NCBI GenBank assembly: GCA_944323595.1
Contig: CALUTF010000013.1
Coordinates: 1-44,077 of the forward strand
Origin: Candidatus Gastranaerophilales bacterium
GTDB lineage: Bacteria > Cyanobacteriota > Vampirovibrionia > Gastranaerophilales > Gastranaerophilaceae
Length of the DNA: 44,077 nt
Direction: 5' to 3'
Part shown: in pieces, positions 27,813 through 29,359 of the stretch
How positions within the stretch are numbered: position 1 is the stretch's first letter
Layout: every line of letters starts with the position of its first letter
Notes under the pieces: model-generated
The model's database searches: none
What the model was told of the DNA's origin: nothing
Seen by the model: the letters and a program-made list of their open reading frames with translations, nothing else
Program-made: the position numbers and the translations under genes

Positions 27813-28718
27813 ATGTTAGTCATTGACGGTGATTACAATTATTTAATAAATAAGTTGAACCTGTCTCCGCAAAAACTTGCAGAGTACGGGACAAAAACCG
27901 TTGACGAAATTCTGGAAGCAGAAGCCGCCGCAGGTAATCAGGCTGCGATTAAGATTGTTAATGAAATGTATACGAATGTTGCATTTCTTGTCGAAATATT
28001 TAAGCTTGCTGATCCGGAAAATAAATATATGATACTTTCTCAAATGAGTTCCCAACAGCTTGAAGAATTTCTGCCGCTTATGGAAGAACAGGATTTGCTG
28101 CAGGGTCTTATGTATTTTTCTATGGATAAAATTCTCGATATGATGGAAGATTTGCCGCCTGAACAGCTTGTTAATGCGGTTTTCCAAATGTTCTCTCAGG
28201 AAGAAATTATCCAGTATATGCCGGAAGATCAGATTGATAAAGTTTTAACAGGACCTGAATTGGACAAAAATAAAGTTCTTGAGCACCTGAAATCTATTCC
28301 GCCTGAATATCTTGCACAAATGATAGAAAATGTTACAGGCGAACCGCTTGATGAAATGGACAGCCTCGATATGATTAACCAGATAGGCGGGTTTAATCCT
28401 ACCGAATATAAAGACGCTCTGACCGGAATGCAGTCTACTCAAAAGCAGCAATTAATGCTTTCTTTATGCAAAGAAAATCCGGAATTGTATCAATTATTTG
28501 CACCTGAAGAGTATACGGATATTATCAATACTTATAAACAAAAACCGCAGGTTGTAAAAGCACTTGAAGTTGTTGAAAAAGAAGAAATCATTAAGATGGT
28601 TCAAGAACTTCCGAATGATTTACTTTCTATGGTCATCACACAAATTGACCCTGATACTTTTGGAGATATGCTCCTCAAGAAACACGCAGATTTACTTGCT
28701 CAGGTTGTTATGATGTAA
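27813..28718 (+). CDS. Helical-repeat protein resembling MgtE N-terminal / FliG-type superhelix
   Basis: A 301-residue hydrophilic, acidic, all-helical protein. Repeated units such as QLEEFLPLMEEQDLLQGLMYF, KILDMMEDLPPEQLVNAVFQMF, EEIIQYMPEDQIDKVL and IIKMVQELPNDLLSMVITQI resemble the short helix pairs of MgtE_N and FliG middle domains. It has no CBS domain and no membrane helices, so it is not itself a magnesium channel. No function can be assigned; a scaffold role is a guess. AGGA lies 11 nt before the ATG. It stands alone downstream of the repeat locus. Confidence 0.8.
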   Translation: MLVIDGDYNYLINKLNLSPQKLAEYGTKTVDEILEAEAAAGNQAAIKIVNEMYTNVAFLVEIFKLADPENKYMILSQMSSQQLEEFLPLMEEQDLLQGLMYFSMDKILDMMEDLPPEQLVNAVFQMFSQEEIIQYMPEDQIDKVLTGPELDKNKVLEHLKSIPPEYLAQMIENVTGEPLDEMDSLDMINQIGGFNPTEYKDALTGMQSTQKQQLMLSLCKENPELYQLFAPEEYTDIINTYKQKPQVVKALEVVEKEEIIKMVQELPNDLLSMVITQIDPDTFGDMLLKKHADLLAQVVMM

Positions 28719-28734
28719 TACATTTTTTGTGTTG

Positions 28735-29049
28735 TCAGCTTTGAAGTTTATCAAGAAGAGTTTTGATTTCCATAATTTTCTGCTTGGCTTCTTCCTGATT
28801 AGAAAAAGATTCAACTACGCAATTTTCAAGATGTCTTTTTAGTATGCTGCTTTCAACCGATTTTACGGCAGAGCGGACAGCTTTTAATTGTATAAGTATT
28901 TCCGGACAGTATCTCTGCTCGTTTATCATTTTTTTTATACCCTCTAACTGCCCTATTGCGCGATTTAGCCGCGGAATTTCACTTTTGTGGCTGGGATTGA
29001 GATGTTCGCTGCAACAGCTTTCTTTTTGATGTGCTTTATTTTCTTCCAT
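28735..29049 (-). CDS. csoR: CsoR-family copper-sensing repressor
   Basis: A 104-residue four-helix DNA-binding protein of the CsoR/RcnR/FrmR family that releases DNA on metal binding. The Cu(I) ligands of CsoR are present with exact spacing: C48, H73 and C77 (YCPEILIQ ... KRHLENC). This makes copper more likely than nickel or formaldehyde as signal. The N-terminal tail has extra ligands, SCCSEH at 11-16, absent from the classical protein. A G-tract operator of the CsoR type lies at 29255-29273, upstream of the small Cys-rich gene on the same strand. A TATAAT box ends 6 nt before the ATG and no ribosome site is seen. Confidence 0.92.
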   Translation of the reverse strand: MEENKAHQKESCCSEHLNPSHKSEIPRLNRAIGQLEGIKKMINEQRYCPEILIQLKAVRSAVKSVESSILKRHLENCVVESFSNQEEAKQKIMEIKTLLDKLQS

Positions 29050-29055
29050 AAGTTA

Positions 29056-29061
29056 ATTATA
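29056..29061 (-). promoter_or_regulatory. -10 box of csoR, leaderless position
   Basis: Perfect TATAAT on minus ends 6 nt before the csoR ATG. Its -35 would fall within the upstream terminator hairpin and is poor. csoR may also be reached by read-through from the metallothionein promoter. Confidence 0.5.
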
Positions 29062-29066
29062 ACATT

Positions 29067-29091
29067 AAAAAAGGAGCAGATTTTCTGCTCC
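29067..29091 (-). terminator. Terminator/attenuator between the Cys-rich gene and csoR
   Basis: GGAGCAGA and TCTGCTCC (perfect 8-bp stem, 3-nt loop, 29073-29091) followed on the minus strand by six T. It should stop most transcripts of the metallothionein-like gene before csoR. Confidence 0.8.
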
Positions 29092-29099
29092 TGAAAAAA

Positions 29100-29228
29100 T
29101 TAATTTTTTTCTTCCGGCTGGCTTTTGTTGCAGCAGTCAGGACAATTACATTTATCGCCGTCACATGTGCAATTATCCCCGCAGGTGCAGTTGATGCATT
29201 TACATTTCGGATTTGAACATTTTGCCAT
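29100..29228 (-). CDS. Metallothionein-like 42-residue Cys-rich protein
   Basis: A 42-residue protein with 11 cysteines, starting MAKCSNPKCKCINCTCGDNC. Cysteines stand at 4, 9, 11, 14, 16, 20, 22, 27, 29, 32 and 33, mostly as C-x-C and C-x2-C pairs, with no aromatic residue, as in metal-buffering metallothioneins. AAAGGAG lies 7 nt before the ATG, and a consensus promoter with a CsoR-type operator in its spacer precedes it. Together with the adjacent csoR this argues for cytoplasmic sequestration of Cu(I). Exact family membership cannot be shown by eye; ferredoxin is excluded by the Cys spacing and size. Confidence 0.88.
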   Translation of the reverse strand: MAKCSNPKCKCINCTCGDNCTCDGDKCNCPDCCNKSQPEEKN

Positions 29229-29252
29229 AATTAAACTCCTTTCGTTATTCTT

Positions 29253-29281
29253 ATTATACCCCACAGGGGTATATTTGTCAA
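29253..29281 (-). promoter_or_regulatory. Metal-inducible promoter with CsoR-type operator
   Basis: On minus, consensus -35 TTGACA (29281-29276), a 17-nt spacer and -10 TATAAT (29258-29253). The spacer is filled by the perfect palindrome TATACCCC-ACA-GGGGTATA (29255-29273), matching the G-tract operators known for CsoR. Bound repressor would block RNA polymerase. Confidence 0.88.
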
Positions 29282-29359
29282 GAGTAACACTACGGACGTA
29301 ATAGAAAATATCCCCGTAAAATCTGATTTTACGAGAATTTTCAGAATTGTAAACTTTTA

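Follow-up and report, generated by a model that had tools for sequence, protein, structure and literature searches.

The window, i.e. the whole stretch of DNA analysed (44,077 nt), represents the complete contig 13 of a genome of 2.05 Mb (98.5% complete). Members of the host family appear in a named collection as Candidatus Gastranaerophilales. Two neighbouring genes on the minus strand, mt and csoR, code for a small Cys-rich protein and a CsoR-type repressor. A summary of the locus is given in Table 1.

Table 1. Features of the mt-csoR locus with their positions in the window
Feature	Position	Strand	Basis or details
Insert of ~640 bp, with mt, csoR and their control regions as sole content	28719..29355		between two convergent genes
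csoR, DUF156 repressor, 104 aa	28735..29049	-	X=C48, Y=H73, Z=C77, A=Y47, B=E94, RLNR 27-30, Q54
TATAAT, putative leaderless csoR promoter	29056..29061	-	exactly 6 nt before csoR ATG
Predicted intrinsic terminator separating mt from csoR, stem of 9 bp with T tract	29072..29092	-	sequence; hairpins in relatives
mt, metallothionein-like protein, 42 aa, 11 Cys	29100..29228	-	ORF, orthologues, alignment, dN/dS
mt ribosome-binding site AAAGGAG	29236..29242	-	sequence; AGGAG-type site before mt in most relatives
mt sigma-70 promoter TTGACA-17-TATAAT	29253..29281	-	12/12 consensus match; conserved in relatives
Predicted CsoR type 2 operator TATACCCC-N3-GGGGTATA	29255..29273		match to type 2 consensus ATATACCCCTNAGGGGTATAT

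The small protein, its promoter and the sensor

The mt product (MAKCSNPKCKCINCTCGDNCTCDGDKCNCPDCCNKSQPEEKN, P0002) consists to 26% of Cys, contains repeated CxC motifs and has neither His nor aromatic residues. Small size, Cys richness, CxC motifs and a lack of aromatics are what is expected of a metallothionein. A likeness to a described metallothionein family was not found: the protein has no match in Pfam or NCBIfam up to an E-value of 10 and none in the PDB, and none of its longer relatives reaches any Pfam or NCBIfam cut-off. In the Gastranaerophilales alignment nine Cys among the first 29 residues are invariant. The 11th Cys is lineage-specific and not conserved in relatives. Judged from sequence, mt represents a new, conserved, putative metallothionein family that lies outside every current family model.

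A preliminary description of this DNA had reported the ORF of 42 residues and 11 Cys, and both its coordinates and its composition were verified. It had moreover called the gene too small for routine gene calling, which is not supported. Gene callers usually work with a minimum ORF length of 90 nt, and mt comprises 129 nt. The same description placed mt behind a consensus promoter with a 17-bp spacer filled by a CsoR-type operator. Promoter, spacer length and the type of palindrome are as described; however, the palindrome (TATACCCCACAGGGGTATA) covers 15 of the 17 spacer bases and extends into the -10 hexamer.

With TGT as its central N3, the predicted operator reads TATACCCC-TGT-GGGGTATA. The CsoR type 2 operator of Streptomyces lividans has the consensus ATATACCCCTNAGGGGTATAT with TAC-X9-GTA spacing (PMC3902906). 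The site at the mt promoter (TATACCCCTGTGGGGTATA) is nearly identical to it, including the TAC-9-GTA spacing and the G tracts. The palindrome is the sole match in the window at up to three mismatches (chance mean 0.06), and it is found 5’ of mt in 50 of 52 loci (L098-L149). In many loci a second palindrome lies between the -10 hexamer and the start codon, while the window contains a single palindrome. In the 2.05-Mb genome the exact core occurs in only three places, the window's included. The two others lie on contig 52 in a transposon promoter 99% identical to that of L070, with mt and csoR missing, and were hence rejected as a second CsoR target. This transposon copy (L068, 2310-2999) keeps the double-operator promoter, and another ORF replaces mt and csoR. 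One near-match on contig 21 is located close to ribosomal-protein genes.

The csoR product matches Pfam Trns_repr_metal (PF02583) with 90.6 bits at a cut-off of 22.8. Sensors of the CsoR/RcnR type are classified by a W-X-Y-Z-(A-B-C) metal fingerprint (PMC4235346). The Cys-His-Cys ligands at X-Y-Z occupy the positions given in the preliminary description and are conserved in all mt-linked CsoRs. Both second-shell residues, Tyr47 and Glu94 (aligned to Glu98 of InrS), are present. The C position is absent, as in the copper-sensing CsoR of Mycobacterium tuberculosis. The DNA-contact residues, an RLXR motif and a Gln, are present as well.

At the N-terminal W position H16 aligns with His21 of InrS, but H16 is not conserved in relatives. 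The His kept across the mt-linked clade is H21, located in a (H/N)PxH motif 27 residues before the X Cys and 5 residues off the canonical W position. It could shift the metal preference. The N-terminal SCCSEH, earlier put forward as a possible additional metal site, is shared only with the close clade L004/L006 and varies among the other relatives, so that this assignment was dropped. In a tree all Gastranaerophilales mt-linked CsoRs group apart from the CDF-linked CsoRs of the same bacterial family, which carry RDC or REC (Asp or Glu) where the mt-linked ones have RYC. Based on the X-Y-Z/A/B fingerprint, RLXR and Gln, the type 2 operator and the separate CDF-linked group, we infer copper as the best candidate for the sensed metal.

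The two genes are seemingly transcribed in separate units. Many Gastranaerophilales loci have hairpins with other stem sequences at the place of the window's terminator, and in many of them TATAAT directly follows the hairpin and T tract predicted to end the mt transcript. The motif stands 6 nt before csoR in 42 of 60 loci, i.e. in every locus of the Gastranaerophilales type except L141 and L146. In 409 kb of related sequence TATAAT-N6/7-ATG is also enriched at ORFs other than csoR, with 9 and 8 cases versus typically 0-5 at other spacings. Therefore leaderless genes seem to be ordinary in this lineage, and csoR probably has its own leaderless promoter behind the terminator. Unrelated start codons with TATAAT 6-7 nt upstream include those of lepA-like and recombinase-like ORFs (window, L070-L097). 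A search for an RNA regulator at the locus yielded no Rfam match.

Alternatively, csoR and mt might form a simple autoregulated bicistronic operon with terminator and TATAAT being incidental. Such a layout would suit the Alphaproteobacteria, where the intergenic distance mostly ranges from a few to 60 nt and TATAAT is missing, and likewise L141/L146 (0-60 nt). It is however at odds with the exact N6 position of TATAAT in 42 loci, with the preceding terminators whose stems have diverged, and with the enrichment of the same spacing before unrelated genes. We regard a simple operon as unlikely.

Occurrence, selection and mobility

In a six-frame search, 29 of the 191 genomes from the same family gave an mt match, and some 25 of these are clear orthologues. 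The search for the small gene beside csoR in relatives, as suggested in the preliminary description, thereby found the frame conserved, linked and preceded by the same operator in ~25 of these 191 genomes. A scan of 84,980 species genomes, partly overlapping with the family set, revealed 80 loci, with mt in Gastranaerophilales, gut Alphaproteobacteria and one member of the Elusimicrobiaceae. In dozens of named gut MAGs mt adjoins csoR and has the same operator. csoR lies at most 400 nt downstream of mt in 60 loci including the window, and one gene separates the two in two or three further loci. Across L098-L149 csoR is present except in L115, whose contig ends there. Weaker matches without csoR among the 80 loci stem from Mucilaginibacter, Flavobacterium and Fimbriimonadaceae.

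The median dN/dS is 0.06 over 191 mt pairs, and variation is concentrated at third codon positions (0.36 vs 0.07 and 0.09). By these measures mt is a real gene under purifying selection. The arrangement of mt, operator and csoR is beyond chance: dozens of genomes show it again, promoter included, at this low dN/dS. The alphaproteobacterial versions of mt are longer (57-66 aa, 16-19 Cys). Gut Alphaproteobacteria and Pseudomonadota also harbour mt-CDF-csoR and mt-(MerT-like small membrane protein)-csoR operons (L142, L144, L172).

In the congeners G035 and G094 the flanking genes abut, with window position 28717 joined to 29356 and 29375. Three congeners lack the module, with no PF02583 match in any of them. 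So the ~640-bp module was either gained recently in the genome of the window or precisely lost in its congeners. No element-end motif was found in the window, and a current transposon insertion was rejected for this copy. Carriage by plasmids or phages was likewise rejected, as neither PLSDB nor INPHARED yielded a tblastn match.

Five other genera carry the module as cargo of a ~2.33-kb unit (~99% identical) with sharp boundaries. Besides mt and csoR, this unit encodes only an MBL-fold protein and an HxlR-type regulator. It contains no transposase gene (module in L122-L139 and L127) and is hence termed non-autonomous. Its ends read TGTAG...TACA with tandem ~22-bp repeats at the right end, and the flanks differ between copies. 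The copies in L122-L139 and L127 behave as expected of a transposon, with sharp shared ends, target-site duplication and different insertion sites. A script matched both ends in eight copies; two of them (L136, L139) show a 5-bp duplication, with 0.008 expected. A third, AACAA in L127, was read by eye, and none is present in the other copies.

Of 146 genomes from the family, 70 contain the left end of the element, beside many different ORFs. Around 30 copies of the left end, the ORFs up to about 1.5 kb away were inspected, and no transposase was seen among them. Single genes seen by eye next to left ends include MATE, dehydrogenase, acetyltransferase, MBL and SnoaL-like genes. Gastranaerophilales elements with the ends TGTAGTTTTTTGTCCAGG...TTCTTTTACA are represented by L070-L074, L122-L139 and L127, and by left ends in L192-L221. 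These small elements possibly constitute an undescribed family of non-autonomous transposons.

L127 is a 331-kb contig filed as Alphaproteobacteria that carries the ~2.33-kb unit. Its flanking DnaB is only 42% identical to that of the window, and the flank matches 11 of 19 genomes (itself included) of a search centred on that MAG. The L127 genome also carries a CsoR resembling alphaproteobacterial CsoRs. The contig may be chimeric; on its present assignment the ~2.33-kb transposon appears to have crossed between phyla. A Gastranaerophilales-type element with mt was also found in L126 (FR900467.1), titled Fusobacterium sp. CAG:439, a name that is probably a mislabel.

Proposed function and alternatives

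No CopA-type ATPase was found in the 98.5% complete assembly of the window's genome, nor was any HMA-domain protein. The only heavy-metal P1B ATPase is of the ZntA/CadA type (TIGR01512 548 bits vs 410 for the Cu model). It has 4umv (ZntA) as best PDB match and adjoins an ArsR/SmtB regulator. With this ATPase and one CDF gene as the only candidates elsewhere in the genome, a distant CopA was rejected.

The explanation we favour, and hold to be fairly likely, is a metal-inducible, copper-sensed sequestration module. Apo-CsoR would bind the type 2 operator over the spacer and -10 hexamer and thereby block the strong mt promoter. Cytosolic Cu(I) would fill the C48/H73’/C77’ site, upon which CsoR would leave the DNA and mt would be transcribed at a high level as far as the terminator. 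The thiol-rich protein could then buffer copper by holding it in a Cu(I)-thiolate cluster. Expression of csoR would be low and probably constitutive, driven by its leaderless promoter with some read-through from mt. As the genome has no CopA-type exporter, the CsoR-controlled copper defence would consist in sequestration rather than efflux. The module is moreover horizontally mobile, by the recent gain (or the precise loss in congeners) of ~640 bp here and as cargo of a small non-autonomous transposon elsewhere. The preliminary description had proposed a compact sense-and-sequester copper module without an evident copper ATPase. Linkage, operator, copper-type residues and the lack of CopA support this in part; repression, Cu(I) as the inducer, metal binding and sequestration are the parts that we infer.

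The metal sensed and buffered might instead be divalent (Ni, Co, Zn or Cd); the sensor would then be of the InrS/DmeR kind and control a metallothionein of the Zn/Cd type. In the gut Alphaproteobacteria L142/L144 the gene of a CDF exporter (ZitB/DmeF-like) separates mt from csoR, which hints at a divalent metal there, the CDF family moving such metals, but among the more than 60 linked loci only these two have it. InrS, the top PDB match of CsoR, uses the same triad for Ni(II); it has however no Tyr at the A position, whereas Tyr47 and Glu94 fit the second shell of a Cu(I)-CsoR. Among the CsoRs of the same family it is the CDF-linked ones that have Asp or Glu in place of this Tyr. The conserved N-terminal His 27 residues before the X Cys would suit a divalent metal, but does not coincide with the canonical W position. 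The cyanobacterial metallothionein SmtA is controlled by the zinc-responsive repressor SmtB, but the operator found here is a type 2 site of copper CsoRs. Overall a divalent metal seems rather improbable. A different role of the protein is to be considered as well: rather than sequestering metal in bulk, it might serve in redox chemistry or metal transfer, as a thiol buffer or as a metallochaperone that supplies CsoR or some other target. Only ten Cys are conserved, so the capacity would be modest; mt is nearly always tied to the sensor gene, and in Bacteroidota and Fimbriimonadaceae there are Cys-rich homologues that occur without csoR. Yet the 12/12 promoter and the good ribosome-binding site imply high expression, the protein is rich in CxC without aromatic residues, and its enlargement in Alphaproteobacteria is as expected for capacity. 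We consider such a role very unlikely.

Relation to known systems

In M. tuberculosis the CsoR paralogue RicR controls mymT, a copper metallothionein whose mutant shows the strongest copper-sensitive phenotype among the RicR-regulon genes (PMC10470581, PMC7558416). As predicted here, a CsoR-family copper repressor thus acts on a small cytosolic Cu(I)-thiolate metallothionein, and the kind of system is therefore known. However, RicR has several targets, of which mymT is one, and the exporter system CsoR-CtpV is present in M. tuberculosis as well. In contrast, the module in the window has its metallothionein gene directly linked to csoR, fits no family model, belongs to a genome devoid of a CopA-type pump, and is mobile.

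The CsoR of S. lividans shares the operator, TAC-X9-GTA, RLXR and the Gln contact (PMC3902906) but controls copZA export operons, whereas the target in the window is a metallothionein gene. InrS of Synechocystis is the closest solved relative (5fmn, E 4.5e-13), with C-H-C triad and Glu at B. It is however a nickel sensor of an exporter with a His-rich N-terminus, which also binds Cu(I) and Zn(II) tightly (PMC4235346). SmtB-smtA and BxmR-bmtA of cyanobacteria likewise pair a repressor gene with a metallothionein gene (PMC8790569). These differ by ArsR/SmtB-family repressors, 12-2-12 operators and another metallothionein family. New are the protein family, the fact that metallothionein and sensor genes are directly linked, a setting with sequestration only, and the mobility; the core interpretation is probable.

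The locus adds a metallothionein family that is coupled directly to a sensor of the copper type, in a gut lineage for which experimental genetics hardly exists, and suggests copper defence by sequestration alone. The sensor-effector cassette moves horizontally in ready-made form, and seemingly across phylum borders too, so that metal tolerance in the gut can be tested as a trait that is mobile. A still wider reading, on which we are evenly divided, takes mt-csoR as one of the cargoes of small transposase-less transposons that would form a large and apparently undescribed family. These would move single genes or operons across gut Gastranaerophilales and between phyla. In anaerobes lacking a copper pump they would thereby spread a copper defence based only on sequestration, together with a metallothionein family not described before.

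Apart from mt, secreted-looking Cys-rich proteins of 94 aa and of 197 aa with 35 Cys are encoded in relatives (L059, 179-463; L169, L173). One of them adjoins a CDF exporter; possibly they represent periplasmic metallothionein-like proteins.
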